From Bacillota bacterium (GTDB taxonomy: Bacteria > Bacillota > Dethiobacteria > DTU022 > PWGO01): DNA of 64,000 bases. The notes under the pieces are model-generated. The model was not told the DNA's origin, searched no databases, and saw only the letters and a program-made list of their open reading frames with translations. The stretch is taken from positions 1-64,000 of the forward strand of contig JAAYSV010000046.1 of NCBI GenBank assembly GCA_012518215.1, in the 5' to 3' direction. Position 1 is the stretch's first letter, and the number at the start of each line of letters is the position of its first letter. Shown in pieces: positions 1 to 43,450 of this stretch. The position numbers and the translations under genes were made by a program.

Positions 1-1303
1 CGTTCTGCATATCACGCAGGTCGCTATACCATCCATCAGCGAGGCGGTGTATTACATCGAGCTCATAGTTTAACTGTATATATACGCGATAAGCATCAAT
101 GGTCTCAGAAAGAGCTCTGGCTTGTGGTTTTAGATCTTTGGCTATCAGCTCTTCCGCACTGCTTTTCTGTTCTGTCAGCAGCGTAATCTCTGTTTGTAAT
201 TCCTGTATTTGTTGTTCGATATCTTTTTCTGCGCCAACAAGGTCGTTATATTGAGCAACTATCCTTGAAAGCTCGGAGCGGGCAGCCTCAATGTAGGATT
301 TCGTATTCTGCGTCGGGATTTTCCCGTTACAAAACGGGCAGGTAGAATCATGCGACACATGTTTCATAACGGTTTCGCCATCAACGATAAAGGAAAGCCG
401 CTTTATGTCTGCGCTGTACTGCGTTTTCAGTGCAGCGTAGCGTGATATAAGCATTTGGCATTCTGTCAGGCGCTCTTTCTTCGCTATCATGCTGTTGAGT
501 AACGACTGGCTGTTTGACATCGCGGCTGATATTTTTTCTTCGATATCAGATAATGCCTGAACTGCACTGTCAATTTCTTTTTGGACGTCCAACCCGTCAA
601 ATGCACCAATCATATCAAGGATACATTGTTTCCGGTCTGCAACTCCGGAAAGCTCTTTGTTGATATACTTTTCTACTGCTGCTTTTCGTATAGCACGTTC
701 TTTTTTGCTTTCGCGTTCATCAAAATCGGAGAAGTCATTGCCGTATATCAAAAACAATAGAGATGAGAGGAAAGCTGTGCGCCCCTGTATGCTTTTTGCA
801 CCGCCTTCAGGCATAAGGATAGAACTCTCACGTTCTATCTGACGTTCTTTTATTAGGATAATAGGCAGGATGGTGCGCCATGTCAGATGTTGTGGTCTAA
901 AATTTTCGTTGGCAATTATGTCATGGTCATCTTCTATACCAATTAAAGCAAGCCAAACCTTGCTGATAGATTCCATGGTTTTTGTCGCGCTTCTGGCTTT
1001 ATATGTACCGCTTTCGATTCTATCGTCAGAACTAACTACGTCAATGTTGTTTGATTCCAGTTTACGCGTAAATTGAATCGAGCCATTTTCCGTGCCGACA
1101 AAAAGCATAATAGTATCATAACCCGTGGTACTCGCAAACGGGAGATTATCACTACCAAAAATATAATCAATACAACGAAGGATTGTAGTTTTTCCTGTAT
1201 TTGAGGGACCCGATATAATCGTAAGCTCTCTGTCAAACTCTGCAACAGCATCCTTTTTATTTACACCCTCGACTACAAGCTTTTTAATATGAAAATCTGC
1301 CAA
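1..1303 (-). CDS. SMC/Rad50-like ABC ATPase of a candidate ABC-3C system (3' part cut off)
   Basis: Translation from a TTG start at 1303, five bases after a GGAGGAG site, stays open to the window edge (at least 434 codons). The N-terminus holds a Walker A motif, GPSNTGKT at residues 32-39, followed by a long charged coiled-coil stretch. A CPFC pair at residues 322-325, with NGK after it, sits at the position of a zinc hook. This is the build of SMC/Rad50-like ATPases; Walker B and the signature motif would be beyond base 1. It follows the middle gene by two bases, so the three genes form one operon. By known family context the ATPase would be the motor or sensor of a nucleoprotein conflict system. 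Function here is inferred. Confidence 0.8.
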   Translation of the reverse strand, partial: MADFHIKKLVVEGVNKKDAVAEFDRELTIISGPSNTGKTTILRCIDYIFGSDNLPFASTTGYDTIMLFVGTENGSIQFTRKLESNNIDVVSSDDRIESGTYKARSATKTMESISKVWLALIGIEDDHDIIANENFRPQHLTWRTILPIILIKERQIERESSILMPEGGAKSIQGRTAFLSSLLFLIYGNDFSDFDERESKKERAIRKAAVEKYINKELSGVADRKQCILDMIGAFDGLDVQKEIDSAVQALSDIEEKISAAMSNSQSLLNSMIAKKERLTECQMLISRYAALKTQYSADIKRLSFIVDGETVMKHVSHDSTCPFCNGKIPTQNTKSYIEAARSELSRIVAQYNDLVGAEKDIEQQIQELQTEITLLTEQKSSAEELIAKDLKPQARALSETIDAYRVYIQLNYELDVIHRLADGWYSDLRDMQN

Positions 1304-1305
1304 GT

Positions 1306-1749
1306 TCACTCCTCCTTTCCTTTAAGCGCTCTTTTATTAATTTCTGCGAGAATTTCAACTTCTGACTTGCTTTCAAAGTATTTGCAAACCGCTTGAGACA
1401 TGACAATATACTCTTCAGTATAGTCTGAAGTCAGCTCGTCACATATGTGCGCTCCTTGTGCTGTTATTTCGTATGTAAAGCCGCTTCGGTTTTGTACTGC
1501 CGATATGAGCCTATTAAGTACAAGCTGCTTAATTGCCTTGCCAACAAGCACTCTCTTTGACGCCACCTCACTAAAACTTAAGCTGTTGTCACCATTCAGG
1601 TTGTACGCGGCAAGGCCAAAATCACGAGAATAAATTGTCATAAAATCAGCGGCAGCAATTTTGTCCAATGTCATATTTTCTCCAAATACGCGAAGTGTCA
1701 GAAGAACGCGGAGCGAAGTTTCGAACGGGGTATTAAACAGCTCAGTCAT
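1306..1749 (-). CDS. Candidate ABC-3C middle component (small winged-helix-like protein)
   Basis: A 147-residue protein. The start chosen is the ATG at 1749, whose codon overlaps the end of the upstream gene by 8 bp; the longer reading frame adds only residues encoded inside that gene. The opening FNTPFETSLRVLLTL, then a predominantly helical body with a likely winged-helix segment, resembles the middle components described for ABC-three-component systems (helix, ATPase-binding adaptor). Its place between an SMC-like ATPase and a larger partner protein, all tightly coupled, is the main support. No catalytic motif is visible. Assignment rests on resemblance and gene order, not on a search. Confidence 0.6.
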   Translation of the reverse strand: MTELFNTPFETSLRVLLTLRVFGENMTLDKIAAADFMTIYSRDFGLAAYNLNGDNSLSFSEVASKRVLVGKAIKQLVLNRLISAVQNRSGFTYEITAQGAHICDELTSDYTEEYIVMSQAVCKYFESKSEVEILAEINKRALKGKEE

Positions 1750-2713
1750 TATCAAATACCCACTGGATTTTCCCGTCATTCACCAGCATATGGCAAATGC
1801 CTTTCTTTTCGCTGTTGTTTATAAGGTCTTTAATTTGCGTGAGAAAAGATTTTGTTAGCGTTATCTGCGATACCTGATTTAAAACAGCCAATAGGCGTTT
1901 AAACCCGTCATCAAAATCATTCCAACATACATCAATGATACCGTTGTAAGCATCTTCTTTTATCTTGCCGAATTCCACATCACCATTCTCGAATATTTCA
2001 CGCACTGAACGCTCTACCCGAACAGCATTATAATAGTTTTCACGCTGATCCGAGTAATTACGACGATATTTGGCATTAAGTGAAGGCAAATCATCTTTCG
2101 TTACACATGCCATTCCGGTAGCCTGTGCGTACGCAGCAAATAACGCCTTAATGTATGGCAATTCCTCTTGAGCAATATCTTCGGGCGGCGTTATTTTTTT
2201 ATGTAAGTTAAATACCTGACCGTTAATTGAGATTTTCCCATCCCTTACATATACAGTTGCTATTGGCACTCCTGTTGGTTTCTGTTTCTCATATGAAGCA
2301 ACACCAGCGGGGGTGTCTTTTCTTTTTGTTCGCCTCGCAGTTTCTGTCAAAATCAAAACAAAAAGCTTAGCGCATTTATCGGCCACATCATAGCCTTGAA
2401 TATCAATGTCCAGCCCCGTTAATTCCATTTCAAGATTTTCTGCAAGATCATCAGAAAGACAGTCATTTATATAAGCAGAGAAACGCATAGGGTCACTTAC
2501 ATCAAGGAGCTGTGCCGCAAGTGATATTGGAAACGGCTTCGCCCCATTATATATACGATTTTTATAATCTGCAGTTTTATCGGTCAAAGGGCTTCCTGTG
2601 AAGTTTGCATCATCCACAACAAAATTGCAGAGTAGGTCATCTAAATACTCTGCTGGCTGTTTGGCTTGTCCGATATACGGATACATCATTTTAAAATATT
2701 CATCCGGCTTCAC
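1742..2713 (-). CDS. Candidate ABC-3C partner/effector protein with C-terminal ABC-3C-type domain
   Basis: A 323-residue protein. I place the start at GTG 2713, six bases after AGGGGAG; an upstream GTG at 2731 lacks a site. The first ~150 residues are mostly helical and unrecognised. The last ~80 residues (GIIDVCWNDFDDGFKRLL onward, ending in GICHMLVNDGKIQWV) look like the conserved C-terminal domain seen in third components of ABC-3C systems. The effector activity would be expected in the N-terminal half, but I see no known nuclease or peptidase motif there. First gene of the minus-strand operon; a TATAAT-like box lies 87 bp upstream. Confidence 0.58.
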   Translation of the reverse strand: MKPDEYFKMMYPYIGQAKQPAEYLDDLLCNFVVDDANFTGSPLTDKTADYKNRIYNGAKPFPISLAAQLLDVSDPMRFSAYINDCLSDDLAENLEMELTGLDIDIQGYDVADKCAKLFVLILTETARRTKRKDTPAGVASYEKQKPTGVPIATVYVRDGKISINGQVFNLHKKITPPEDIAQEELPYIKALFAAYAQATGMACVTKDDLPSLNAKYRRNYSDQRENYYNAVRVERSVREIFENGDVEFGKIKEDAYNGIIDVCWNDFDDGFKRLLAVLNQVSQITLTKSFLTQIKDLINNSEKKGICHMLVNDGKIQWVFDND

Positions 2714-2799
2714 AAGCGTCTCCCCTTTCACTACATAAAATCCGAAATGGTCCGAACAAGTCCGTTGCGTTCCGTGGCGAAATCAGATTATCAAATACA

Positions 2800-3567: not shown

Positions 3568-3571
3568 AATT

Positions 3572-3610: not shown

Positions 3611-3644
3611 GACACATCTGCAGCGTCCCTCGGAAAGGACGGAG
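3596..3644 (+). promoter_or_regulatory. RNA hairpin that could mask the next ribosome-binding site
   Basis: A 9-bp perfect stem, CCGAGGGAC (3605-3613) with GTCCCTCGG (3625-3633), is enclosed by CTCCGT (3596-3601) pairing with ACGGAG (3639-3644). The outer 3' arm overlaps the AAAGGACGGAG site that precedes ATG 3652. Folding would therefore hide the site. No T-run follows, so this is not a simple terminator. Confidence 0.6.
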
Positions 3645-3651
3645 ATAAATA

Positions 3652-5302: not shown

Positions 5303-5319
5303 TGAAGGAGATTTTTATT

Positions 5320-5742: not shown

Positions 5743-5760
5743 TGAAAGGATGAAAATATC

Positions 5761-6516
5761 ATGAAAAACAATGAAAATAGGACTCTTACCACCAAGAACA
5801 GTGCGTTTATGGCACTAAAGGACTTTGACTTAAACGATGCGCTCACTGAGGAGCTTTCCGGTTTATCAGGCAGCTTTGAGCGCATTAAAATTCCTGCAGC
5901 CGGTATGACGGTATTTGAAATTCCCGGTGAAAATCCCGACAGTCCCGAAACTGTTAAGGAGTTTTCGGCAGTTATCCTGCACCACCATCCGCTGTATGCC
6001 TATTATACTGACAAGTATACAGGTGGTTCAAATCCCCCTGATTGCGGCAGTTTTGACGGCATCACCGGTGTAGGTAACCCCGGCGGAGATTGCTCCAAGT
6101 GTCCGTTTAACAAATTCGGTTCAGGCGAGAACGGAGCGAAAGCCTGTAAAAACCGCCGCCGCATTTATCTGCTAAGGGAGGGCGAGATTTTTCCGATGAT
6201 CCTCTCCCTTCCAACCGGATCGCTTAAGGACTTTACCCGTTACATTATGCGTCTGCTCTCAAAAGGTAAAAAATCCAACGCGGTAGTCACTAAATTCACC
6301 CTAAAAAAGGCTACCAACAACAGCGGTATCGCATATTCCCAAGCGCAATTCTCAGTCGACCGTGATTTAACCAATGAGGAATTTGCGCTTATTTCAGGAC
6401 TTACCGAACAAGTCAAAGCTTTCTCCGTTCGTGTCGGCCACGACAACGAATCCTCCGTTGATGTAGCTGCAAACATTGACCCCGAAACAGGTGAAGTTAT
6501 AGAGCCGCTCGCTTAA
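5761..6516 (+). CDS. Candidate phage ssDNA-binding protein with Cys cluster
   Basis: A 251-residue acidic-ended protein. It has a four-cysteine cluster (CG, CSKCPF and a further Cys in ENGAKACKNRR, residues ~98-126) that could bind zinc, and a beta-rich middle. The C-terminus is acidic and flexible (DPETGEVIEPLA), a trait of replication ssDNA-binding proteins that recruit partners. It lies directly before the DNA polymerase gene. Family identity is not certain; the role is inferred from position and the acidic tail. Confidence 0.5.
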   Translation: MKNNENRTLTTKNSAFMALKDFDLNDALTEELSGLSGSFERIKIPAAGMTVFEIPGENPDSPETVKEFSAVILHHHPLYAYYTDKYTGGSNPPDCGSFDGITGVGNPGGDCSKCPFNKFGSGENGAKACKNRRRIYLLREGEIFPMILSLPTGSLKDFTRYIMRLLSKGKKSNAVVTKFTLKKATNNSGIAYSQAQFSVDRDLTNEEFALISGLTEQVKAFSVRVGHDNESSVDVAANIDPETGEVIEPLA

Positions 6517-6581
6517 AGAATAAAGCCGCAGGTCGGGTGGTCATGTGCTACCCGACCCCATGCGACAGATTGGAGCAATTT

Positions 6582-8510: not shown

Positions 8511-8962
8511 TGTGGATAGATAAATGTAATTCTGAAGGTTATTATGACCCAACGGCATACAAGGCCATGCGAAAAATACTGCGCGATGAATTAGAACGCT
8601 GTTATGGTACGGGGCACCGCCCTCTTGTATTCATATGTTCGCCATTTGCCGGAGATATAAAAGCAAATACAGAGCGCACTAAAAACTATTGCCGCTTCGC
8701 TGTGGAGCAATATGCAATCCCTGTCGCACCCCACCTGCTATACCCGCAGTTTATGGATGAGCATGATCCGGATAGCCGTAGCCTTGGTCTATTCTTTGGT
8801 CGTGTTCTGCTTGGAAAATGCCAGGAACTTTGGATCTTTGGCGATAACGTATCCGAGGGCATGAGCTATGAAATACGCAAAGCACGGAAGAAAAATATAC
8901 CGATACGCTATTTTACGGAAGATTGTGAGGTGAAAGCGATATGCCCTACCCAAAAGAGCTGA
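8510..8962 (+). CDS. DUF4406-type protein (nucleoside 2-deoxyribosyltransferase-like fold)
   Basis: A 150-residue protein; ATG 8510 shares a base with the polymerase stop and has GGAGGG upstream. Recognisable are the N-terminal FICSPFAGD strand-loop, HLLYPQFMDE, and ELWIFGDNVSEGMSYEI, which together match the DUF4406 fold related to nucleoside deoxyribosyltransferases. Such proteins occur in many phage replication regions; their substrate is unknown. The end overlaps the primase gene by 22 bp. Confidence 0.75.
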   Translation: MWIDKCNSEGYYDPTAYKAMRKILRDELERCYGTGHRPLVFICSPFAGDIKANTERTKNYCRFAVEQYAIPVAPHLLYPQFMDEHDPDSRSLGLFFGRVLLGKCQELWIFGDNVSEGMSYEIRKARKKNIPIRYFTEDCEVKAICPTQKS

Positions 8963-11478: not shown

Positions 11479-11487
11479 ACAATTTAA

Positions 11488-11733
11488 ATGTAACCTTACA
11501 GGCCAATACGCAACTTTCCGAAGAGGAAAAGTTACAAGAAAAGTTACGCCCAAAAACCGCTATATAAAAGCACAATTTGAGTTTTCTTATTTTTTGTAAC
11601 TTTGTAACTTCTAAAATTATGGGTATACACGCGAAAGCAACAATTCCCCATCGCGAGCGCGTATGTGCGTGTAAATATATGCACACCTATATATTTTCAA
11701 GTTACGAGGTTATTAGCTGCAAATAAGTTACAA
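11488..11733. repeat. Cluster of AAGTTAC-type short repeats (candidate iterons or operators)
   Basis: The gap between the primase and the VRR-NUC gene carries the word GTTAC or its complement GTAAC at about 11490, 11531, 11543, 11596, 11604, 11701 and 11728. Most sit within AAGTTAC/GTAACTT. Two pairs are closely spaced (12 and 8 bp). The region is AT-rich and does not code for a protein of length. Iteron-like sites beside a replication gene may mark an origin or a protein-binding operator. The last copy lies directly before the next ribosome-binding site. Confidence 0.5.
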
Positions 11734-11743
11734 GGAGGTTCCA

Positions 11744-12028
11744 ATGTCTGAAAAAGAAATTGCATCAAAAATCCTTCGTTATTTAAAAACCGTTCCGAAG
11801 TGCTTCGCTTGGAAGGAACACGGCGGTATTTATGGAACAGCCGGCATCCCGGATATCATCGCCTGCATCGACGGCAGGTTTTACGCCTTTGAAGTAAAAA
11901 CACCTATTGGCAAAACAACAAAACTTCAAGAAGCAACTATTCGTAAAATCCTCGCCTGTGGCGGCGCCGTTTCGGTCGTCCGTTCAGTTGACGAGGTGCG
12001 AGCTGTTATAAACGGCTCCCTGCAATGA
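11744..12028 (+). CDS. VRR-NUC domain nuclease
   Basis: A 94-residue protein after AAGGAGG. The whole length is one VRR-NUC fold: the GIPDIIACIDGRFYAFEVK signature gives the PD-(D/E)XK residues D and E-x-K, and the C-terminal VSVVRSVDEVRAVI is typical. Stand-alone VRR-NUC proteins are common in phage replication blocks, usually beside an SNF2 helicase, and resemble Holliday-junction or flap resolving nucleases. Here the SNF2 gene is six genes upstream in the same early block. Confidence 0.9.
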   Translation: MSEKEIASKILRYLKTVPKCFAWKEHGGIYGTAGIPDIIACIDGRFYAFEVKTPIGKTTKLQEATIRKILACGGAVSVVRSVDEVRAVINGSLQ

Positions 12029-12120
12029 TTTTGAAAATAATGCATCCGTGCTCTACGTATACAACGCCAACAATGCGGCAGCGCTTCTTTCAAGAATAAA
12101 AAATAAGGAGCGTGTCACAC

Positions 12121-12342
12121 ATGATTGACAATTATAATAATTTAGCTAACGCCATCATTCTTCAAGCTGTGAAGGATTATCGCAAGGAATTGCGTACCCT
12201 CTTTCGTCACCCCAACAACCGTTCAGCACAGTATGAGCGCAGGCGCATTGAACAATTCTTCCGTTCTGGCTGGTTTGGAGTGCTGACGAGCATCGACCCG
12301 GAAATGCTAATCACCAAGCTGAAAGCTGAGGTGATGTCATGA
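12121..12342 (+). CDS. Small phage protein, function unknown
   Basis: A 73-residue protein. ATG 12121 lies ten bases after AAGGAG; the GTG at 12112 is too close to that site. It has two predicted helices, a basic stretch RHPNNRSAQYERRRIEQFFRS and a final short helix. Proteins like this (with NRSAQYERRRIEQFF near the middle) recur in clostridial prophages between the early block and DUF1492 genes. The stop overlaps the next start by 4 bp. Confidence 0.55.
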   Translation: MIDNYNNLANAIILQAVKDYRKELRTLFRHPNNRSAQYERRRIEQFFRSGWFGVLTSIDPEMLITKLKAEVMS

Positions 12343-12755
12343 CTGTTAAAGCATATCTCAGGCAGGCATACAGGCTCGACCAGCGTATAAATTCCAAACT
12401 GGAGCAGATTGCTTCTCTAAATGAACTGGCGACAAAATGCACCTACACCCTAACGGGAATGCCCCGCAATCCAAATCGCAGTACATCAACGATAGCCGAT
12501 GCTGTGGCAAAGATTATCGACCTGCAAGCGGAAATCAATCGCGACATCGATAGGCTTGTCGACCTTAAGCGTGAAATTGTAAGGCTCATCAAAACCGTAG
12601 ATAACACAGAACATCAGACGCTTCTGGAGCTGCGCTACCTCTGCTTTAAAACTTGGGAGCAGATAGCTGTTGATATGGGCTATAATGTACGCCATGTATA
12701 CCGACTTCACGATGAGGCAATAAAAAATATTTCTGTTCCGCAAACTCAGCAGTAA
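12339..12755 (+). CDS. DUF1492/ArpU-like late transcription regulator
   Basis: A 138-residue protein. The N-terminal half is a long helix (residues ~7-85); the C-terminal TLLELRYLCFKTWEQIA, then DMGYNVRHVYRLHDEAI, is a sigma region 4-like helix-turn-helix. This family (DUF1492, related to ArpU) is known as a late-gene regulator in phages of Gram-positive bacteria. The position, last of the early operon and just upstream of a candidate promoter and the packaging genes, fits activation of late transcription. Confidence 0.85.
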   Translation: MTVKAYLRQAYRLDQRINSKLEQIASLNELATKCTYTLTGMPRNPNRSTSTIADAVAKIIDLQAEINRDIDRLVDLKREIVRLIKTVDNTEHQTLLELRYLCFKTWEQIAVDMGYNVRHVYRLHDEAIKNISVPQTQQ

Positions 12756-12765
12756 ATGTCACTGT

Positions 12766-12795
12766 TTGTCATGAACTCCTTTGTGATAGTATATA
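12766..12795 (+). promoter_or_regulatory. Candidate late promoter
   Basis: TTGTCA (12766-12771) and TATATA (12790-12795) are 18 bp apart, directly after the DUF1492 gene and before the HNH and terminase genes. TGTCAC, at 12757-12762, and GTGATA, at 12784-12789, form an inverted pair that may be a binding site. This is the natural target for the upstream regulator. Confidence 0.5.
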
Positions 12796-12818
12796 TTTAG
12801 GAACGCATAATAAACCAG

Positions 12819-12851
12819 AGCCTCGAGGGAAAATCCCCCGTGGCTTTTTTT
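12819..12851 (+). terminator. Candidate hairpin terminator or attenuator before the HNH gene
   Basis: AGCC (12819-12822) pairs with GGCT (12842-12845) and GGGA (12827-12830) with TCCC (12834-12837), followed by a run of seven T. It lies between the candidate late promoter and the HNH gene, so it could be an attenuator overcome by antitermination, or a terminator for early transcripts. Confidence 0.5.
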
Positions 12852-12871
12852 ATGCCCGAGGAGGTGACTCT

Positions 12872-13237
12872 ATGCCAAAGAAACCAAAGCGGCCGTGTCG
12901 ATACCCTGGTTGCCCAAAACTGACGGATGGTTTGTATTGTGTGGAACATCAACGGCAGGCAACTCGCCACTATAATCATTTCCAGCGCGAGCCTGAAACC
13001 AACAAAAAATATGGCCGTGCATGGAAACGCATACGCGACCGTTACATCAAGGCACACCCGCTATGTGAGGAGTGTAAAAAAGCTGATCGCTTAACCCCCG
13101 CAGAAGAGGTACACCATATTCTCCCGCTCAGTCGCGGAGGAACAAATGATGTGAGCAATCTTATGTCGCTTTGCAAATCGTGTCATTCACGCATTACTGC
13201 AGAGAGCGGCGACAGGTGGGGGCGGTCAAATCTCTAA
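12872..13237 (+). CDS. HNH endonuclease
   Basis: A 121-residue protein after GAGGAGG. An N-terminal zinc knuckle, CRYPGCPKLTDGLYCVEH, precedes the HNH core: CEECKK, then EVHHILPLSRGG and NLMSLCKSCHSRIT. HNH proteins next to terminase small subunits take part in DNA packaging cleavage in HK97-type phages. This one is first in the packaging block, in keeping with that role. Confidence 0.92.
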   Translation: MPKKPKRPCRYPGCPKLTDGLYCVEHQRQATRHYNHFQREPETNKKYGRAWKRIRDRYIKAHPLCEECKKADRLTPAEEVHHILPLSRGGTNDVSNLMSLCKSCHSRITAESGDRWGRSNL

Positions 13238-13330
13238 AACTATTTTTAGCGGACAGCGGCGTGGGGCTTCGCGTGTGAAATCGCGGTTTCAAACGGCGTA
13301 TATCCCCCACCATTAAGGAGTGTGTTGAAT

Positions 13331-13903
13331 ATGGCAAAAGACGGCACCAACAGGGGTGGTGCAAGAATCGGCTCAGGACAAAAAAAGAAAGCCCTCGCCG
13401 ACAAAATTTTAGACGGCAATCCCGGTAATCGAAAATTGACCATCATGGATTTTTCAAACACAGCGGATCTGACCGGAGACTCAATGCCAAAACCAAGAGG
13501 CTACCTTATAGCAAAACAAAAAGACGGTTCCACGACACTGGCGGCGGAAATTTTCAATAATACATGGCAATGGCTCAAGGAACGGGGTTGCGCGCAATTA
13601 GTAACCACCCAGCTTATAGAACAGTACGCTCAGAGTGTGGCTCGGTGGATTCAGTGCGAACAGGCAATCAGCGAGTTTGGCTTTCTTGCAAAGCACCCCA
13701 CCACCGGCAATGCTATTCCATCCCCCTATGTTTCGATGTCTCAAAACTTCATGAAGCAGGTCAACAACATCTGGTTCCAGATTTATCAAGTAGTGCGGGA
13801 AAACTGCACTACAGAATATCGCGGTGCAACGCCCCAAGACGATGTAATGGAAAAGCTGCTCAATGCCCGTCGGGGCACACTGTTAAAAACGGAGGAATTT
13901 TAA
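13331..13903 (+). CDS. Terminase small subunit, P27 family
   Basis: A 190-residue protein. ATG 13331 lies ten bases after AAGGAG; GTG and TTG codons just upstream are too close to it. Features are the basic N-terminus (GGARIGSGQKKK), the conserved helix-rich DNA-binding middle, and the C-terminal AllDDVMEKLL-type segment of the P27 family. It recognises phage DNA ends and hands them to the large subunit. Unusually, the large subunit gene is 5.3 kb downstream, with a methylation block in between. Confidence 0.88.
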   Translation: MAKDGTNRGGARIGSGQKKKALADKILDGNPGNRKLTIMDFSNTADLTGDSMPKPRGYLIAKQKDGSTTLAAEIFNNTWQWLKERGCAQLVTTQLIEQYAQSVARWIQCEQAISEFGFLAKHPTTGNAIPSPYVSMSQNFMKQVNNIWFQIYQVVRENCTTEYRGATPQDDVMEKLLNARRGTLLKTEEF

Positions 13904-15067
13904 ATGACAACTTACAAAACAGCGGAAAGTGTTTGTAAAGGCCATCCAGACAAACTTTGCGATCTAATCGCCGACAGCATCTTGGATGCCTGTCTTAGAA
14001 AGGATAGAGCATCTCGCGTGGCTTGCGAGGTAATGGCGACTAAGGGAAAAATCATCGTAGCGGGCGAAATCACCTGTAGCGAAAAAGTGAATATTCGTTT
14101 TATCGTGCGAGAAGTCCTGCGAAAGGCCGGATATAGTCCTTGGAAATTTATAGTGTTAGTATTCGTTCATCGACAGAGCGCTGACATCGCAGCCGGTGTT
14201 GATACTGCGCTCGAAGCACGAAACGGTACCTGCGATCCTTATGGCTCTATCGGCGCAGGTGATCAAGGCACAGTATACGGATATGCAACAAAGGAAACCC
14301 ATGAGTATTTGCCTTTACCATTGGTTCTTTCGCATCGTATTGCCAAGCGCATTGATGACTGCCGCGAAGGAAAGCTCATCAAGGGCATTTTACCAGACGG
14401 CAAGTGTCAGATCACGGTCGAATATGAAGATGGCAAGCCAAAACGTGTGAAAACCGTGGTTATTTCTGTCCAGCATGAGACGAACAAAACACAAGAGCAG
14501 CTGCGCACGGATATTATGAATAATGTCTTATGGCAATGCTTTGAAGATTTTCCACTAGACGATGATACCGAAATACTTATTAACCCCTCTGGCAGATTTG
14601 TCAAAGGCGGTCCCGCTGCCGATACGGGGCTAACGGGCAGAAAAATTATGGTAGATACTTATGGCGGGCTTGCGTCTCACGGTGGTGGTGCCCTCTGCGG
14701 CAAAGATCCGACGAAGGTTGACCGCAGCGGCGCATACATGGCACGGTACATCGCAAAGAATATTGTATGGAGCGACTTAGCTGAAAAATGCGAGGTCGCC
14801 CTTTCTTATGCCATCGGCAAAGCAAACCCCGTGGCGGTAGCAGTTACTTCATTTGGGACAAGCAGACTAACAGATGAACAACTTACCTCTATTGTACAGG
14901 AAGTCTTTAATTTGCGCCCTGCCGCCATCATCGAAAAACTGCGTTTGAGAACCGCCATATATGAAAACACTGCGGCATATGGGCATTTCAACTCATGTCT
15001 CTTTACATGGGAGAACTTGGATTGCCATAAGGAGTTAAGAAAGGCGGCTAAAGAATATGCTGATTGA
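13904..15067 (+). CDS. metK: Phage-encoded S-adenosylmethionine synthetase
   Basis: A 387-residue protein with the whole MetK fold: TAESVCKGHPDKLCDLIADS at the N-terminus, GAGDQG, PDGKCQITVEY, GGPAADTGLTGRKIMVDTYGG and the GGGALCGKDPTKVDRSGAYM active-site region. It makes SAM from methionine and ATP. The usual acidic residue before GHPDK (SEGHPDK) is Lys here. ATG 13904 follows the small-terminase stop directly, after GGAGG. It is followed by two SAM-using DNA methyltransferases, so it likely supplies them. The flanking terminase genes show it belongs to the prophage. Confidence 0.95.
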   Translation: MTTYKTAESVCKGHPDKLCDLIADSILDACLRKDRASRVACEVMATKGKIIVAGEITCSEKVNIRFIVREVLRKAGYSPWKFIVLVFVHRQSADIAAGVDTALEARNGTCDPYGSIGAGDQGTVYGYATKETHEYLPLPLVLSHRIAKRIDDCREGKLIKGILPDGKCQITVEYEDGKPKRVKTVVISVQHETNKTQEQLRTDIMNNVLWQCFEDFPLDDDTEILINPSGRFVKGGPAADTGLTGRKIMVDTYGGLASHGGGALCGKDPTKVDRSGAYMARYIAKNIVWSDLAEKCEVALSYAIGKANPVAVAVTSFGTSRLTDEQLTSIVQEVFNLRPAAIIEKLRLRTAIYENTAAYGHFNSCLFTWENLDCHKELRKAAKEYAD

Positions 15068-16355
15068 AAAAATACCCGCAATAAAACTTAATCCATCTGC
15101 ATATAACCCACGAAAAGATCTGAAGCCCGGCGACAAAGAATATGAAAAGCTCAAGCGCTCTATTGCGGAGTTTGGTTATGTGGAACCGGTCATCTGGAAT
15201 AAGGCTACTGGTAACGTGGTCGGCGGTCACCAACGGTTGAAAGTATTACTCGACCTTGGTGTATCAGAAATTGATTGCGTAGTCGTGGAGCTTGATGACA
15301 ACCGCGAAAAGGCACTCAACCTTGCTCTTAATAAAATACAAGGTGATTGGGATGAAACAAAGCTGGCCTCACTTATGGCGGAATTTGACGCGTCTACATT
15401 TGACGTATCCCTCACTGGCTTTGATGCCGACGAAGTTGATGCGCTTTTAAATAAATTTTACTCGAAAGAAGCCATACAGGATGACTTCGACGTAGACAAA
15501 GAAAGGGAAGCCATTGAGGCTGCTGGCGAAACACGAACTCATTCAGGCGATATATGGCTGCTTGGACAGCATCGGCTATTGTGCGGCGACAGCACAAGCG
15601 AGGTAGATTTTAACCGTCTGATGGACGGTGCTCATGCCCAATGCGCTGTTACCTCTCCTCCATATGGTGTCGGAAAAGAATATGAAAAGGCCGGGATTGA
15701 ACCTTGGTTTGAAACTATGCGACCCGCTATAAAAAACATCTGTAAAAACGCAGATATCGTCTGTTGGAATATAGGAGACCTATATGCAACGGGAACCCAG
15801 TTTATTGAACCAACCGAAATGTATAGCATTGGGCTATTTGGCGACAACGGCTTTCGTCCCATTTGGATTCGCATTTGGAAAAAGCAAGGCATGAATTTCG
15901 GCAACGCACCCTATCACCTTGTGACAAATAAACCGGTGCAGCAGTACGAATATATCACGGCACTGGCTGCGCAGGTAACCGAGGAGTACAACGACCAAGA
16001 GTTCGCCTGGGTTTCAGCTTTCGCCGGTCATTCATATAAGTTTGTAAAGCGGCTCACCAAAGATGAACGTAAAAAATGGGGCTATGCCGGTATTTGGGAA
16101 ATATCTACTGTGCGAGCCAATAAAGATCACCCTGCTATGTTTCCTGTAGAGCTTCCGTGGCGATGCATAAAAATGCACTCTGACCGGGGCGGTATTGTAT
16201 TAGAACCTTTTGCGGGCTGTGGAACGACTCTCATCGCCTGTGAACAGACTGAGCGCAGGTGCTATGCGATGGAGATATCACCGGTATATTGTGACCTCAT
16301 TATAAAGCGCTGGGAAACATTCACCGGTAAAACTGCCGTGAAGCTGGAGGTATGA
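15057..16355 (+). CDS. ParB-domain DNA methyltransferase (N4-cytosine or N6-adenine), copy 1
   Basis: A 432-residue fusion. Residues 1-95 are a ParB/Spo0J-like nuclease domain (LNPSAYNPRK, then GHQRLKVLLDLG). The C-terminal part is a beta-class amino-methyltransferase with TSPPYG as the catalytic motif and LEPFAGCGTTLIACE as the SAM motif. The SPPY form is typical of N4-cytosine enzymes but does not prove it. It overlaps the metK end by 11 bp. It is paralogous to the next gene, though the region between motifs is unrelated. Confidence 0.9.
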   Translation: MLIEKIPAIKLNPSAYNPRKDLKPGDKEYEKLKRSIAEFGYVEPVIWNKATGNVVGGHQRLKVLLDLGVSEIDCVVVELDDNREKALNLALNKIQGDWDETKLASLMAEFDASTFDVSLTGFDADEVDALLNKFYSKEAIQDDFDVDKEREAIEAAGETRTHSGDIWLLGQHRLLCGDSTSEVDFNRLMDGAHAQCAVTSPPYGVGKEYEKAGIEPWFETMRPAIKNICKNADIVCWNIGDLYATGTQFIEPTEMYSIGLFGDNGFRPIWIRIWKKQGMNFGNAPYHLVTNKPVQQYEYITALAAQVTEEYNDQEFAWVSAFAGHSYKFVKRLTKDERKKWGYAGIWEISTVRANKDHPAMFPVELPWRCIKMHSDRGGIVLEPFAGCGTTLIACEQTERRCYAMEISPVYCDLIIKRWETFTGKTAVKLEV

Positions 16356-16356
16356 T

Positions 16357-17586
16357 ATGGATATACAGAAATTACCAATAGAAAAATTAAACCCTGCGGC
16401 ATACAATCCGCGCAAAGACCTCAAACCCGGCGATGCTGAATATGAAAAGCTGCGCCGCTCCATCGAGGAATTCGGTTACGTTGAGCCTATTATCTGGAAT
16501 AAGCGCACGGGAAATATTGTTGGTGGCCATCAAAGATACAAAGTACTGGTGGCACTTGGGTATACGAATGCAGATTGCGTGGTGCTGGACATCGATGAGC
16601 AAAAGGAAAAGGCCTTAAATGTGGCGCTTAACAAGATATCCGGTGAGTTCGATATCCCGCTTTTGACCGACCTTTTGAAAGACATCGGTGCAAGCGGATT
16701 TGATGTATCTCTTACGGGCTTCGACGCTACAGAGATGGATGCGTTGTTCAGGGATAGTATAGTCGGAGGAATCAAAGAGGATGATTTTGACGAACCATTA
16801 CCCCAAACGTCCATTTCTAAGCAGGGAGACATCTGGCTGCTTGGACGGCATCGCCTAATCTGCGGCGATGCTACAAAAGCGGAAACATATAAAAATCTGC
16901 TGGACGGCCAGCAAGCAAATCTCGTGATTACAGATCCCCCATACAACGTGAATTATAAAGGCACTGCGGGAAAACTTAAGAATGACAATATGGAAAGCAC
17001 TAAATTTCATGACTTCCTGCTTTCAGCTTATCGGTATATGTATGATGCACTCGTAGACGGTGGCGGCATTTATGTTTTCCACGCCGATCGTGAGACCGTC
17101 AATTTCAGAACAGCATTTACCGAAGCAGGTTTCTTTTGTCACCAGACCTGTATATGGATAAAGAATACACCTGTCTTGGGGCGCTGTGATTATCAATACA
17201 ACCATGAACCTATTCTCGTTGGCTGGAAGCCAACAGCCGGTCATAACTGGTATGCCGACCGTAAACAGCGTACGACATGGAATTTTGACAGGCCGACTAA
17301 GAGCAAACATCATCCTACCATGAAACCGGTAGCTTTATGCGCATATCCGATTATAAACAGCTCACTGCCAAATAATATCGTGCTTGACCCCTTTGGCGGC
17401 AGCGGCAGTACTCTCATTGCCTGTCAGCAGACAAGGCGCATTTGCTATACGATTGAATTGGATGAGCGTTATGCCGACGTTATTGTAAAACGGTACATAG
17501 AGCAAAAAAGCTCGGATACCGACGTTTACCTAATGCGTGATACACAAAAAACTGCATATAGAGATATCGAAAAACCTGTGAAATAA
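16357..17586 (+). CDS. ParB-domain DNA N6-adenine methyltransferase, copy 2
   Basis: A 409-residue paralogue of the upstream gene. The ParB-like domain (residues 1-95) matches the first copy closely, but the catalytic motif here is ITDPPYN and the SAM motif LDPFGGSGSTLIACQ, the classic pattern of N6-adenine enzymes. The difference suggests the pair modifies two distinct sites. It starts two bases after the upstream stop. The C-terminal tail has an extra 20-residue segment. Confidence 0.92.
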   Translation: MDIQKLPIEKLNPAAYNPRKDLKPGDAEYEKLRRSIEEFGYVEPIIWNKRTGNIVGGHQRYKVLVALGYTNADCVVLDIDEQKEKALNVALNKISGEFDIPLLTDLLKDIGASGFDVSLTGFDATEMDALFRDSIVGGIKEDDFDEPLPQTSISKQGDIWLLGRHRLICGDATKAETYKNLLDGQQANLVITDPPYNVNYKGTAGKLKNDNMESTKFHDFLLSAYRYMYDALVDGGGIYVFHADRETVNFRTAFTEAGFFCHQTCIWIKNTPVLGRCDYQYNHEPILVGWKPTAGHNWYADRKQRTTWNFDRPTKSKHHPTMKPVALCAYPIINSSLPNNIVLDPFGGSGSTLIACQQTRRICYTIELDERYADVIVKRYIEQKSSDTDVYLMRDTQKTAYRDIEKPVK

Positions 17587-17654
17587 TGCTTGCCATTCTA
17601 CAGATTTTATGGCTCTATATGATCTGCGTATAACGCAGAAAGGTGGCAAATGCA

Positions 17655-18344
17655 ATGGAACAAAACACATTTGAAGTCCGGTTTAATGTTACCGGCGATG
17701 AGCGTAAGCGTCTCGTCCGGGCAATGGGCGACATTTTGCAAGCTGCACCAAAATACTTGGGTGCTCCGAGCTTCGCTTACGAGATTGATTATTTCACTGT
17801 TGATAAAAATGGCACCGTTGTTTTTAATAACCGCAGTGATAGTTTGGAAATCGAAAAGCTCATAGAGAAGCTGCATGAATTGGGCTTTGAAGCAGAAAAG
17901 AACGGCGGTGACTCTAATGATGGCGACAAGCTTGTTATTGAGATGCCGCTGGCGGGGTTCACTCCTGAAAAGCTTGAGAACCTTGCTAAACTGGTCACCG
18001 CAAAGGGATCGCTTCTCAAGGCAGCATTAGATGCTGAAGATTTGCCTATTCAGCAGACAGAAAACACTATACGCTTCCCATGGTTCAAAGGAAGCTTAGA
18101 CAGCAATTCGGTTCACGCCTATACTACACTAATAACGAAACTCTGTGAAACGGCAAAAGAAAAGCTGCGAGTCAATGCCAAAGAACGTGAGGTTGATAAT
18201 CCAAAGTACGCCATGCGCTGCTGGCTCCTCTCCCTCGGCTTTATTGGTGACGAATACAAGGTTAGCAGAAAAATCCTGCTGAAAAACCTCTCCGGCAGCA
18301 GCGCATTCAAATCTCCGAAAGGTGATGCAGGCGATGAACAATAG
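17655..18344 (+). CDS. Conserved prophage protein, function unknown
   Basis: A 229-residue protein. I use ATG 17655, about nine bases after AGAAAGGTGG; the upstream GTG overlaps that site. The N-terminal half is a small alpha/beta domain and the C-terminal half (after SLDSNSVHAYTTLITKLC) is helical, ending with a GDEYKVSRKILLKNL helix pair. Similar proteins in clostridial prophages are often labelled virulence-related without evidence. It lies after the methyltransferases and before DUF4314. Confidence 0.7.
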   Translation: MEQNTFEVRFNVTGDERKRLVRAMGDILQAAPKYLGAPSFAYEIDYFTVDKNGTVVFNNRSDSLEIEKLIEKLHELGFEAEKNGGDSNDGDKLVIEMPLAGFTPEKLENLAKLVTAKGSLLKAALDAEDLPIQQTENTIRFPWFKGSLDSNSVHAYTTLITKLCETAKEKLRVNAKEREVDNPKYAMRCWLLSLGFIGDEYKVSRKILLKNLSGSSAFKSPKGDAGDEQ

Positions 18345-37914: not shown

Positions 37915-39477
37915 TTGAAAAAAGTAACAAAAATTGATCCAAATACAGCTGAAACAGCGGAGAATCCAAGGCTAAAAGTTGCGGCATACTGCCGCGTTTC
38001 CACTGACAGCAGCGAACAGATAGAAAGTCTTGATACTCAGATTAAGCACTATGAATCCTATATCAAGGCAAATCCTGATTGGGAATTTGCCGGAATCTAT
38101 TTTGACGAAGGTATTACAGGCACAAAAAAGGAAAAGCGAGCAGGACTACTTCAAATGGTCTCCGACGGCGAAAGCGGGAAATTCAATCTTATTGTAACGA
38201 AATCAATCAGCCGGTTTGCAAGGAATACAACGGACTGTTTGGAACTTGTCAGAAAACTGCTTGACCTCGGCATTTTTATCTATTTTGAGAAGGAAAACAT
38301 AAACACGGGGTCAATGGAAAGCGAACTCATGCTGTCAATCCTATCTGGGCTGGCCGAAAGTGAATCGGTTTCTATTGCGGAAAACAGTAAATGGTCTGTA
38401 ATACGCAGATTTCAAAACGGGACATACAAAATATCTTGCCCGCCCTACGGATATGATACCGTAGATGGAAAGCTTGTAATAAATGAACCCCAAGCAGAAA
38501 TCGTCCGCCATATTTTCACCGAAATTCTATCCGGCAAAGGTACGCAAAAAATTGCGAATGCATTAAATCAGCGGGGCATTCCCTCTAAGAAAGGCGGCCA
38601 CTGGACGGCGACTACCATTCGCGGGATAGCCGGTAATGAAAAATATACCGGGGACGCCATTTTTCAAAAGACCTATACCGACGCACACTTCAGCCGCCAT
38701 TACAATTACGGCGAAAAAGACCAGTACTTGATTAAAAGCCACCACGATGCGATTGTCAGCCATGAAGATTTCGAAGCTGCGCAGATGATTATAGAGCAGC
38801 GTGGTAAGGAAAAAGGATTGGAAAAACAGGATAAAAAGTATCAGAACCGTTACCCCTTTTCCGGCAAAATAATTTGCGGTGAGTGCGGCGGCAAGTTTAA
38901 GCGCCGAATACATTCTACCGGCAGACATAATATCGCATGGTGCTGCTTAACACATATCTTGGATATTGAAAGGTGCTCAATGAAATACATTCCGGAGACG
39001 GATTTTGAATATGCGTTTGTAACTATGATGAACAAGCTCATCTTTGGGCATCAGATTATTTTAAAGCCGCTACTCATGAGTCTGCGGGGTATCAAATCCG
39101 AAGATAGCATAGAAAAGCTTCACGACCTTGATGAGAAGCTTAAAGAAAATGAAAAACAACGGCAGGTGCTGATTGCTCTGCAGACCCGTGGTTATCTTGA
39201 CCCTGCCGTATACAATAGAAGCAATAATGAGCTTATACAAGAAGCCGAGCGTATACAACGCCAAAAAGAATCCTTATCCCGCTTCATAAACAGCGACAAT
39301 ACAAACCTGCATGAAGTCAGCGAACTTTTGCAGTACGCTACGAAGTCGGAAATGTTGGATACCTTTGACGGCAAGCTGTTCACCCGCTTCGTAGAGCGAA
39401 TTATTGTGTATTCCCGGGCGGAAATCGGGTTTGAATTAAAATGCGGCTTAACGCTAAAAGAAAGGTTGATAAGATAA
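37915..39477 (+). CDS. Large serine recombinase 1
   Basis: A 520-residue protein with a TTG start following AAGGAGGTGAGGA. The resolvase domain has AAYCRVSTD with Ser29 as the likely nucleophile and KSISRFARN, the recombinase domain follows from ~residue 165, then a zinc ribbon (IICGECGGKF, then WCC and RC) and a long coiled coil at the end. It can act as the phage integrase. First of three genes. Confidence 0.95.
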   Translation: MKKVTKIDPNTAETAENPRLKVAAYCRVSTDSSEQIESLDTQIKHYESYIKANPDWEFAGIYFDEGITGTKKEKRAGLLQMVSDGESGKFNLIVTKSISRFARNTTDCLELVRKLLDLGIFIYFEKENINTGSMESELMLSILSGLAESESVSIAENSKWSVIRRFQNGTYKISCPPYGYDTVDGKLVINEPQAEIVRHIFTEILSGKGTQKIANALNQRGIPSKKGGHWTATTIRGIAGNEKYTGDAIFQKTYTDAHFSRHYNYGEKDQYLIKSHHDAIVSHEDFEAAQMIIEQRGKEKGLEKQDKKYQNRYPFSGKIICGECGGKFKRRIHSTGRHNIAWCCLTHILDIERCSMKYIPETDFEYAFVTMMNKLIFGHQIILKPLLMSLRGIKSEDSIEKLHDLDEKLKENEKQRQVLIALQTRGYLDPAVYNRSNNELIQEAERIQRQKESLSRFINSDNTNLHEVSELLQYATKSEMLDTFDGKLFTRFVERIIVYSRAEIGFELKCGLTLKERLIR

Positions 39478-39894
39478 ATGAGCCATATCCCATACGGATA
39501 TCTAATTGAAAATGGAAAAGCCGTTGTTGATGAACAAGCTGCTAAGAAAATAAAAACATTATTTCAATCTTATCTGAGCGGCGATTCGTTAACCTCGGCC
39601 GCAAAGAAGGCAGATATTAAGGCCTTCCACGCAGGAATCGGCAGGATGCTCAGAAATAAATACTATTTCGGTGATGGTTATTATCCGGCAATTATTGAAC
39701 CCGACACTTTTGAAGCCGCTGAAGCAGAACGCATCAGGCGGGCAGAAAAACTCGGCCGAATCCATGAATCAGAAATAAAGAAGGAAATCGTCTACCCCTC
39801 TACATTCCGCATCGTCCAGGGTACAGAGCAATTTGATGATCCGTTCCAGCAGGCGGAATATGCCTACAGCTTGATAGAAAGTGAGGACCCGTAA
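39478..39894 (+). CDS. Recombinase-domain protein without catalytic domain
   Basis: A 138-residue protein that starts right after the first recombinase stop. Its content ([20 protein letters not shown], then [20 protein letters not shown]) matches only the recombinase domain that follows the catalytic part in large serine recombinases. No resolvase catalytic serine motif is present. It is a natural candidate for an accessory or DNA-binding partner. Such middle members are known from recombinase trios in Firmicutes elements. Confidence 0.85.
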
Positions 39895-39896
39895 AA

Positions 39897-41468
39897 ATGG
39901 AAGAAAAAATGACTGTAACGCTGCTTCCGGCAAGGAAAAAAGCGTGTTCAGTAAAAAATGATGAAGAAAACCCAAAACTTCGCGTAGCTGCTTACTGCCG
40001 CGTTTCCACCGATAGCGACGAACAGGAAACCAGTTATGACGCACAAATTACGCATTATACTGCTTATATAAACGGGCATCCGGATTGGGAGCTGGCCGGT
40101 ATTTATGCCGACGATGGTATTTCGGGCACCAACACCAAAAAGCGCGAGGAATTCAACCGCATGATTGAGGACTGCATGGCAGGCAAAATAGATAAGGTAA
40201 TCACCAAATCAATAAGCCGCTTTGCAAGGAATACAGTGGATTGCTTGAACTACATTAGACAATTAAAAGACAAGAACATACCCGTATATTTTGAGAAAGA
40301 AAATATCGATAGCATGGATTCCAAGGGCGAAATTATGCTCACCATCATGGCATCCCTTGCCCAGCAGGAAAGCCAATCGTTAAGCCAGAACGTAAAGCTT
40401 GGGCTGCAGTACCGCTACCAGCAGGGTGAAATTCAAATAAACTGTGCACGGTTCCTTGGTTATACCAAGAATGAAAACAAGAAGCTAATCATTGTTCCGG
40501 AAGAAGCTGAGGTTGTAAAACGAATATACCGAGAATATCTTGAGGGCGCAAGTATGCTAAAAATTGCCCGCGGCCTTGAGGCCGATGGTATTCTAAACGG
40601 TGCAGGGAGGAAAAAATGGCACACCAGCAACATCAACCAGATTTTGCGGAATGAAAAATATATAGGCGATGCCCTTTTGCAAAAGACATATACTACTGAT
40701 TTTCTAACGAAAAAACGAGTGAAAAACCATGGCATTGTCCCTCAGTATTATGTAGAGAACAGCCATGAGGCCATCATCCCGCGAGAAATTTTCATGCAGG
40801 TGCAAGAAGAACTTATCCGCCGCCGCATCGTCCACACCAGCCCAAATGGTAAGAAGAGGACCTTCAGCAGTACGCACTGCTTTTCAAATATGATTATCTG
40901 CGGTGGCTGTGGAGAATTTTTCCGCAGAATTCATTGGAATAATCGAGGGAAAAAGTCCATCGTTTGGCGCTGCATCAGCAGGCTCGAAAACACCGGCCAG
41001 TTCTGCAATGCCCGCACGGTACCGGAAGGCACCATTGAGCAGGTGCTGGTCAATGCAATCAACCAAACGCTATGCGATAAGGATTCCTTCCTCTCTGTTC
41101 TTAAAAATAATATTGAGACCGTCATAAGTCATGAAAACGATACAAAACTTGCCGGCATCGACAAACGGCTGGAGGAGCTTCAAACAGAGCTTGTGAAACT
41201 GGCCAACTCCAAAGCAGACTACGATAAAGTGGGCGAGGAAATTTACCGCCTGCGTGACGAAAAGCAAAAAGTACAGCTTGAGGTAATCGGGCGGGACGAA
41301 CTGAAAAAACACATTGACGATATGAGTGAATTCCTAAAAGGGCAGCCCACAGCGATTACCGAATATGATGAGTCACTTGTCCGGCGGCTGGTTGAAAAAA
41401 TCACCGTCTACGAGGATAAATTCACCGTGGAATTCAAGTCTGGCGTGACGGCGGATGTGAGAGAATAA
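39897..41468 (+). CDS. Large serine recombinase 2
   Basis: A 523-residue protein, ATG two bases after the previous stop. AAYCRVSTD (Ser37), [10 protein letters not shown] and a zinc ribbon ([25 protein letters not shown]) make it a complete large serine recombinase, related to but distinct from the first copy. Ends with a coiled coil. The three genes form one operon that closes the element on the right. Confidence 0.95.
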
Positions 41469-41482: not shown

Positions 41483-41519
41483 AAGGCACCCTACGAATTA
41501 TAACGTAGGGTGCCTTTTA
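41483..41519 (+). terminator. Terminator between recombinases and the 584-aa gene
   Basis: A 13-bp stem AAGGCACCCTACG/CGTAGGGTGCCTT (41483-41495, 41504-41516) followed by TTTTAT on the plus strand. It ends the recombinase transcript; the stop of the minus-strand gene lies in its 3' arm. Confidence 0.92.
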
Positions 41520-43271
41520 TATGGTTAATGAAAGTGAGGCATCGTTACCATGCAATTCCACATCGTCTGTATTGTAGGAAATCCCCAGTGTTTCGAGCTT
41601 TTGACATAAACATTTTTTACTATACAAGGGCGAATGATTTGTATTTTTTGCTTCAAGTAAAACAACTTGTTTTTCTTTGCGCATTGGAAAAATAATAATC
41701 CCATCAAATTCACATAATTTATGTCCAGGCTGATTTTTTTTATAAACGAGGATGCTTGCTGGTATTGTAATAGTAGTATCATTTTTTGCATCTTCACTTA
41801 ATATGTAGCATAGATGATCCGCCTCATGGCGCTCATCTACGGTTCCAATCTTATTTTTTAGAAGTGCTTGTACTGCATCAATTCTTTGTTTTTTCCCTCT
41901 ATTACATAGAACACAAATATTTTGATCAATAGTAGGTTTAATTAATATAGGGTATTCATTGAAAAAATATCGAAGAAAGAACTTGCTTGACAAGAGAAAA
42001 CGAACATCATTAATGTTTATATTGGGAACAGCCCTCAAATAGATAATAACAGTTCGTAAAATATTGAGTGCTACATGCGTTTTGTCTTCACAATGCTTTT
42101 TTATTGACACCAGTATGGTTCTCTCACCTTGATGCCTATCATAATAACCTACACGGGATTTATTGATTCTTTCTAATGATTGAAATAGTTTTTTAGACAA
42201 CCCGTTGTCAATAGCATCAAATGTCAGCTTTAATATGCCATCTTTGCAAAAATCCTTCTTTTGTGGATACGATATGTTAAAAGGGCTATTGTTATTTAAC
42301 CAAAAATCCTCATAATATTTTTTCGGATTCTTTTGTGGGGTTAGAACCTTTTTTATAATTTTCTTGGAAATAGCATAATAGCAAATAGCATTTGAGATTT
42401 CATTATAAACAGTATCATTTAACATTTTACTAATTGAATTTAATAATTGCTCAGTTGAACTGTTATTATTATAAATCGATAACAATTCCCGAAACAGTAT
42501 CAGAATTGTCTTGTCTTCGCATAAATCAATAGTAATCGGTGTTTTTGCTATTTGTAAATCGTAAGAAATATAAGAAACACTCCGGACAGAACGGAAAAGT
42601 TTGAAAATATAACTTAATTTTTTTTCATCATTGAATACTTTGTCATTTATATATGCATATATAAGTTCTTCGGCAAGAACTACAGATTGCTTGCTATGAT
42701 CACATCGTTCGAGAACTAACAGCGAATTTAATAAGTGAAATCTCTGATAGTTATTATCCCTCAAAATTTTTTCAGCTTCAGCATGGAAGCGTTCATTATC
42801 CGAACTATAAACAATCATTTTATGAAAATCTGCTTTTTGGTCTGCAAGTAATACCGCTGAACGAGACGCGACGAAGGTGTTATAAAAATGACCTATATTA
42901 TATACTATTGTTAAAATTTGAAGCAGATCTCCAATAGTAGGTATTTTACACCCGTTAGGATATTGTAAGTTCGTATAAAATTCTGATGATTTGACTGGAT
43001 TATTATATGTATATTTTAATTGATCTTGTAATTCCCTTTTTATTAATTGATGAAAATACAATTGTAAAAATACATAATCATATCTACTTTTCAATAATTT
43101 ATTTTCGACCCTTATAACACCTAATTGAGGAACAGCCTTCATGCGTTCAATTATTCCGATTGAATCTAACTCTTCATAGAGTTCCGTTGCATATGCATAT
43201 AAATCAACCTTAACTTTTCCCGTATTTCTTCTACGCTTTTTTTTCCTGAGCAAGTCATTCACTATAATCAT
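41517..43271 (-). CDS. AT-rich protein with C-terminal PD-(D/E)XK-like signature, candidate defence gene
   Basis: A 584-residue protein; I use ATG 43271 after AAGGTGAAG (a GTG at 43280 is embedded in the site). Base composition is clearly more AT-rich than both prophage and host. Most of the length is helical and unrecognised. A CVLC pair lies about residue 448-451. Near the C-terminus, CEFDGIIIFPMRKEKQ with D523 is followed by LLEAKN with E540 and K542, the D...E-x-K pattern of restriction-type nucleases. It stands alone at the prophage/host border and is transcribed against the recombinases. Confidence 0.7.
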   Translation of the reverse strand: MIIVNDLLRKKKRRRNTGKVKVDLYAYATELYEELDSIGIIERMKAVPQLGVIRVENKLLKSRYDYVFLQLYFHQLIKRELQDQLKYTYNNPVKSSEFYTNLQYPNGCKIPTIGDLLQILTIVYNIGHFYNTFVASRSAVLLADQKADFHKMIVYSSDNERFHAEAEKILRDNNYQRFHLLNSLLVLERCDHSKQSVVLAEELIYAYINDKVFNDEKKLSYIFKLFRSVRSVSYISYDLQIAKTPITIDLCEDKTILILFRELLSIYNNNSSTEQLLNSISKMLNDTVYNEISNAICYYAISKKIIKKVLTPQKNPKKYYEDFWLNNNSPFNISYPQKKDFCKDGILKLTFDAIDNGLSKKLFQSLERINKSRVGYYDRHQGERTILVSIKKHCEDKTHVALNILRTVIIYLRAVPNININDVRFLLSSKFFLRYFFNEYPILIKPTIDQNICVLCNRGKKQRIDAVQALLKNKIGTVDERHEADHLCYILSEDAKNDTTITIPASILVYKKNQPGHKLCEFDGIIIFPMRKEKQVVLLEAKNTNHSPLYSKKCLCQKLETLGISYNTDDVELHGNDASLSLTI

Positions 43272-43368
43272 TATCTTCACCTTGCCTTAATAATACTTTA
43301 AATGTATAATAATGAATTACCAATTCTACATCCATCCTGACCACACAACCTCGCCATTTTCAAAAAAA

Positions 43369-43450
43369 CATCTAAATTGACCACTCGCAAACCCATGTTA
43401 TCTAAATCGACCACTGGTTAAACACTGACATCTAAATCGACCACTCGCAA
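43369..43450. repeat. Three 30-bp-spaced repeats, IS21-type transposon end remnant
   Basis: TCTAAATTGACCACTCGC (43371), TCTAAATCGACCACTGG (43401) and TCTAAATCGACCACTCGC (43431) are exactly 30 bp apart. Several copies of a TGGTCGATTTAGA-type word (the complement) at the end is a known trait of IS21-family transposons. No istA or istB gene is here, so it would be a remnant. Confidence 0.55.

Follow-up and report, generated by a model that had tools for sequence, protein, structure and literature searches.

A candidate sensor-nuclease at a prophage edge joins a SAMHD1-like module with a lost metal site to a PD-(D/E)XK-like domain

Our analysis suggests that the 584-residue protein encoded at 41517..43271 (stop codon included, minus strand) of the window, by which we mean the whole stretch of 64,000 nucleotides analysed from contig JAAYSV010000046.1 of a Bacillota bacterium, is probably a new kind of anti-phage sensor-nuclease. 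A two-domain architecture, a SAMHD1-like module followed by a PD-(D/E)XK-like nuclease domain, is well supported. Each half is of a known kind, and what is new is their combination, with an HD site that is consistently inactivated. Judging from sequence and gene context, an anti-phage role of the gene family is likely. For the protein itself, we give about equal weight to being right and to being wrong in proposing that it acts in defence on its own, with a dead dNTPase-like module that detects a nucleotide, or a related ligand, altered by infection and thereby unleashes the nuclease.

The original prediction described an AT-rich protein of 584 residues lying outside recombinases that face it, and this description held. 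The open frame spans 41517-43280 on the minus strand and yields 584 residues when read from the ATG at 43271, which is the likely start because the N-termini of relatives (M-x-x-I-x-H-N-L-L) align there. The GC content of the gene is 30.8%, against 48.5% in the 8 kb on either side, and the base-composition scan proposed earlier showed that the dip is limited to this gene, the sliding-window GC falling to about 0.31 at 41517-43271 only. Three serine-recombinase-type ORFs on the plus strand (37915..41468, made up of 37915-39477, 39478-39894 and 39897-41468) lie in convergent orientation to the gene, which is outside them. A terminator hairpin with a 13-bp stem (41483..41516, minus strand) directly 3' of the stop codon separates it from the convergent recombinase, so that the gene looks like its own transcription unit, and the window ORF list contains no partner ORF adjoining it.

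A Lamassu system (1..2731, minus strand, recognised by Pfam and PADLOC) occupies the opposite prophage end and consists of LmuB (1-1309, cut by the contig start), the ABC-3C middle component MC2 (1306-1779) and LmuA (1742-2731). Together with the 584-aa gene, this system places defence-type genes at both ends of the prophage. In IMG/VR, the gene sits at the end of its viral record. The comparison of the two prophage ends for att repeats returned just two matches of 12-13 bp, about the number expected by chance, in a contig that starts at window base 1. Between the 584-aa gene and the host gene at 43667, we observed three copies of ATCTAAAT(C/T)GACCACT at an exact 30-bp spacing (43370-43445). 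The genome has no further copy of this repeat, and none of 149 relatives has it as a pair; it is possibly a transposon end or an operator.

About 520 residues of the protein had initially been left unrecognised. This remains true for sequence databases, as the single protein has no match in Pfam, PADLOC (0 models), PHROGs or NCBIfam at E<=10 or among PDB sequences, and a profile of the 12-row alignment found no PDB sequence either, but it does not hold for structure, where about 450 residues appear SAMHD1/dNTPase-like with the metal site lost. The AlphaFold model of the full protein, built from 12 rows, has a pLDDT of 88.8 and a pTM of 0.84. Its N-terminal part comprises a predicted helical HD/SAMHD1-like core at residues ~20-340 (42252..43214, minus strand), assigned by AlphaFold and Foldseek to SAMHD1 and by hhalign to HD dNTPases, and an alpha/beta lobe at residues ~341-450 (41922..42251, minus strand), delimited from the secondary structure of the model, by which this core is separated from the nuclease domain. 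Foldseek of the full model returned SAMHD1 as the top solved match (9ec2_B, E=1.3e-3, prob 1.00), a loose structural match with TM scores of 0.38/0.49 and an rmsd of 9.3 A. The second match was the dNTPase PA1124 (prob 0.69), the remainder being noise, and a BFVD structure search found no viral structural match.

Profile comparison, which is independent of structure, points in the same direction. Using ten canonical HD dNTPases from related genomes as reference (A7), hhalign aligned the QLG, RxxH and HDxGH segments of these enzymes with the family, R-x-x-H falling on R63-Y-D-Y66 and HD-x-G-H on Y124-N125-I-G-H128. The match to the HD dNTPase profile had P=1.2e-3 for the family and 6.5e-5 for its divergent branch, in which 'NQLGALTDSLHGAHYTRYEYI' closely resembles the dNTPase 'RQLGLTEMVYPGAVHTRFEHS', and the N-terminal region alone scored 39.4, compared with a maximum of 27.6 in 100 column shuffles. 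Model and profiles together make residues ~20-450 appear to have a SAMHD1/dNTPase-like fold.

The metal ligands of SAMHD1 are H167, H206, D207 and D311, its H210 contacts phosphate, and a feature common to HD phosphohydrolases is an Arg that precedes the first His by three residues and lies close to the phosphate of the substrate (PMC8177086). Every member of the family has a Tyr in place of H167 (Y66, 43074..43076, minus strand), a Tyr or Ala in place of H206 (position 124) and an Asn in place of D207 (N125). In the window protein, the motif H206-D207-x-G-H210 has thus become Y124-N125-I-G-H128 (42888..42902, minus strand), in which the last His alone is kept. R63 (43083..43085, minus strand), the counterpart by position of SAMHD1 R164, the phosphate-binding Arg found three residues ahead of the first HD-motif His, and H128, the H210 equivalent, are invariant across the family. 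The D311 equivalent has two alternative placements, R230 according to motif spacing or the 215-217 region according to hhalign. Because the first three of the H...HD...D ligands are replaced in all members, the family is not an HD hydrolase by the ligand criterion.

Losing the HD pair alone need not stop nucleotide binding, since the SAMHD1 HD206/207RN protein was crystallised with dGTP (PMC4592219). As the metal centre is lost but the phosphate-contacting residues are kept, the module is predicted to bind without hydrolysing, and we infer that a pseudo-enzyme keeping nucleotide binding is the simplest reading of the conservation. Unusual, non-canonical ligands are tolerated at HD sites across the superfamily, which makes residual activity possible in the family (PMC8177086). 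This tolerance and the invariance of polar residues near the site (N125, H128, T132, S136, R230 and D238) would fit a bifunctional enzyme, whose HD-like site still hydrolyses (deoxy)nucleotides through non-canonical ligands and whose nuclease is a second effector. We find such an enzyme improbable, because three of the four metal ligands are altered in every member, including a His to Tyr change, and alanine at the corresponding SAMHD1 positions abolishes restriction (PMC4592219).

The C-terminal end had been singled out for a nuclease signature, D523...E540-x-K542, and these three residues are indeed found at those positions. All 11 sequences that extend over these positions have the three residues unchanged, even at 21% identity, and the motif is therefore not a product of chance. 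The PD-(D/E)XK-like domain extends over residues ~455-584 (41520..41909, minus strand), with E483 on its first helix (41823..41825), D523, the predicted metal-binding Asp of the nuclease motif, in the sequence E-F-D-G (41703..41705), and E540-A-K542 as the (D/E)XK element (41646..41654), all on the minus strand. Wherever they are covered, E483, S506, E521-F-D523-G, P529, E540-x-K542-N and L555 are invariant. AlphaFold modelled the C-terminal 139 residues with a pLDDT of 93.4 and in the order helix (with E483), strands, EFDG strand, E-x-K strand, helix, strand; this model and that of the full protein (pLDDT 88.8) have the same alpha-beta-beta-beta-alpha-beta order, with the motif on strands 2 and 3.

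Further indications came from a profile of NERD domains from 17 genome loci, with which the family aligned as 'EFDGIIIFP...VVLLEAKN' against 'QIDHVIVS..GVFVVETKN' (P=3.7e-5), with a score of 33.1 where 100 column shuffles reached a maximum of 20.9. Mrr was considered as a nuclease relative and set aside, its match (P=0.41) falling inside the shuffled range. The Pfam NERD model gives no match in the window protein (E<=10) or in any other member; the similarity being of the profile-profile kind only, we do not file the domain in NERD. Foldseek of the isolated C-terminal domain against the PDB had a best E of 0.95 and retrieved no nuclease, in a search that often misses short divergent domains. 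The nuclease core that had been foreseen is supported by a confident model, the PD-(D/E)XK element order and the NERD profile match, although Foldseek found no solved nuclease, and membership of the C-terminal domain in the PD-(D/E)XK superfamily, as judged from sequence and model, is highly likely but not proven.

The family is rare, with about 12 further loci whose full-length members are 21-59% identical, mostly Clostridia-like and in some cases on predicted viral contigs. A first scan of genome contigs with the single window protein found no relatives. Whole-genome searches recovered relatives in G102 (36%), G459, G211 and G073 and a remnant in G412, and an alignment-based scan recovered eight genome loci (L019-L026) and three viral contigs (L027, L028 and L029). 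L022 is the G459 locus (L010) again, L027 is the prophage studied here and L029 is the L019 locus again. Searching phage and plasmid records by tblastn gave no match, whether the query was the window protein or a divergent member, and neither did viral scans with divergent members alone. A weak match of one member to the PADLOC model PDC-M38B was absent from five members rescanned and was dropped. The L019 contig (QKJV01000098.1) is labelled Desulfobulbaceae and its family member is 56% identical to the window protein, the other relatives being mostly Clostridia-like; this placement reflects either horizontal transfer or a misbinned contig.

With the genome of the window counted, matches occur in 3 of 200 relatives and in 6 of 398 genomes of the phylum, the class sample contributing just G073, in which the gene is split by an IS66-type element (L003/L004). 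The copy in L024 is frame-disrupted and that in L011 is a fragment; the pieces of relatives broken by the IS66 insertion or by frameshifts were entered separately. All copies measured are more AT-rich than their surroundings. This distribution is that of a mobile, frequently lost gene rather than of a fixed host gene, in keeping with what the original prediction expected. An ordinary fixed host gene whose function is simply unassigned could explain why the gene sits outside the recombinases, at a place where the contig start at window base 1 prevents the two sides of the integration site from being compared. This explanation is largely refuted by the sporadic distribution, on which we rejected it, and is further opposed by the alien composition, the viral-contig matches and the broken copies, so that we regard it as very improbable.

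Homologues recur beside defence genes, namely in L028, L024, L025, L015, L004 and L019, the neighbours being restriction systems of types I, IIG and II, McrBC and SIR2-HerA. In L028, the genes of an MTase_II protein and of a type IIG enzyme that combines T5orf172, ResIII and Eco57I domains stop 124 bp upstream of the family member, and in L024, a ResIII enzyme homologous to that of L028 and an Eco57I methylase start 160 bp downstream. The regions L028:4851-9868 and L024:3276-8542 are homologous restriction systems with T5orf172 (GIY-YIG-like), ResIII and Eco57I parts, fused in L028 and split in L024. Just upstream of the L023 member lies a 93-aa remnant that is 53% identical to the L028 methylase. 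The L025 member is near hsdM, hsdS (identified by position), hsdR and a resolvase, and that of L015 is flanked on one side by a specificity subunit and an N6-methylase/HSDR_N_2 protein and on the other by a tyrosine recombinase. In L004, a helicase-type Z1-like gene, a cytosine methylase, a type II restriction enzyme and Vsr precede the family member, and SIR2 and HerA follow it. The L004 region (G073, 1721-18226) is a dense defence island that holds the IS66-split member. An AbrB/RelE-like pair, recognised by reading alone, lies close to the L005 member, and the examined flanks of L021 and L020 contain no recognised defence gene. Of the 9 usable loci, 3 had N6_Mtase no more than 10 kb away, the expectation being 1.6% per locus (P about 3e-4, a rough guide because this test was picked after the neighbourhoods were seen).

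A search for homologues beside recombinase trios or in defence islands had been suggested, and L019 has both: HsdR-like, EVE-AAA, McrC, macro and VWA genes precede the family member, and a recombinase trio lies about 5 kb further. Identity between the large members of this trio and the two large recombinases of the window is 38% and 47%. The two trios (L019:17013-21752 and window 37915-41468) are homologous, and their short middle member seems to be without a catalytic domain. Since recombinases adjoin the family member in the window, L019, L015, L025 and L017, the protein might be an accessory nuclease that aids the integration, transfer or competition of a recombinase-bearing element and not the defence of the cell. 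We consider this doubtful at best, because the recombinases are of different kinds (serine trio, tyrosine recombinase, small resolvase), the gene has no recombinase at all in the flanks of L021, L023 and L005, and the neighbours in common are defence genes.

Single-stranded nucleic acid binding has been reported for SAMHD1-type proteins. Such binding, together with restriction-modification systems lying 124-160 bp away in L028 and L024 and McrBC in L019, would suit a type IV-like restriction enzyme, in which the N-terminal module, instead of sensing a free nucleotide, directly reads foreign DNA that is modified or structured and the PD-(D/E)XK domain cuts it, so that the enzyme would complement the restriction-modification systems travelling with it. 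Among the alternatives weighed here this one deserves some attention, but we still hold it to be unlikely, as Pfam recognised no known modified-base reader domain in any member, the partner systems vary between loci, and the conserved residues concentrate in the dNTP pocket motifs.

Our preferred reading is that the gene would be a single-gene sensor-nuclease carried as defence cargo at the prophage edge, which agrees with the original prediction on nuclease, cargo and defence and adds the SAMHD1-like half. Its module may bind a dNTP or related nucleotide whose level shifts in infection, or a nucleic-acid end, whereupon the C-terminal PD-(D/E)XK domain would be released or brought into alignment, a gating that would probably operate through an oligomer, as in other dNTPases. 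This domain could then cut DNA, either that of the invader or that of the host as abortive infection. That the protein binds a ligand, that such binding gates the nuclease, that DNA is what it cuts and that it acts against phages are inferences. In its narrowest form, the proposal is that a dead SAMHD1-like domain serves as a sensor of the dNTP pool or of a nucleotide signal and is wired to a PD-(D/E)XK nuclease in one polypeptide, which we put forward tentatively, as somewhat more likely to be wrong than right.

SAMHD1 and bacterial dNTPases counter viruses by destroying dNTPs. If our reading is true, evolution has turned the antiviral dNTPase fold from an effector into a receptor, and the protein would provide a single-gene, directly testable link from phage-caused nucleotide changes to DNA cleavage. 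None of the family and defence databases searched contains this family, which is carried on prophages, occurs next to restriction systems and is compact enough for cloning as a single gene. No model for a SAMHD1-like/nuclease fusion was found in these databases and no paper on one in the open-licence literature, where absence is weak evidence.

Several known systems have features in common with the family. SAMHD1 and the bacterial HD dNTP triphosphohydrolases (EF1143- and YwfO-like; Pfam HD_assoc_2) are alike in the overall fold of residues ~20-450 and have in common with it the QLG, the Arg before the first His position and the GH motif, but the family has the equivalents of H167, H206 and D207 replaced, an extra C-terminal nuclease and no Pfam match. 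NERD nucleases have the motif (E/Q)(F/I)D-x-(I/V)-(I/V)...P...(V/I)-E-(A/T)-K-N that aligns with the family, which differs from them by a longer spacing from the D to E-x-K, the SAMHD1-like fusion and the lack of a Pfam NERD match. The divergent, inactive HD domains of the RelA type are a precedent for an HD hydrolase domain losing its activity (PMC8177086), although RelA is a ppGpp synthetase without a nuclease domain. Finally, CloA of Clover, a dGTPase that senses phage-raised dTTP, is a defence protein with a dNTPase fold for which the reading of a nucleotide pool altered by phage, proposed here for the family, is established (PMC12265719). The dGTPase of CloA is active, its HD motif is intact and an NTase, CloB, is its partner, whereas in the family described here the HD motif is lost, no partner ORF lies beside the window gene and the effector would be a nuclease.
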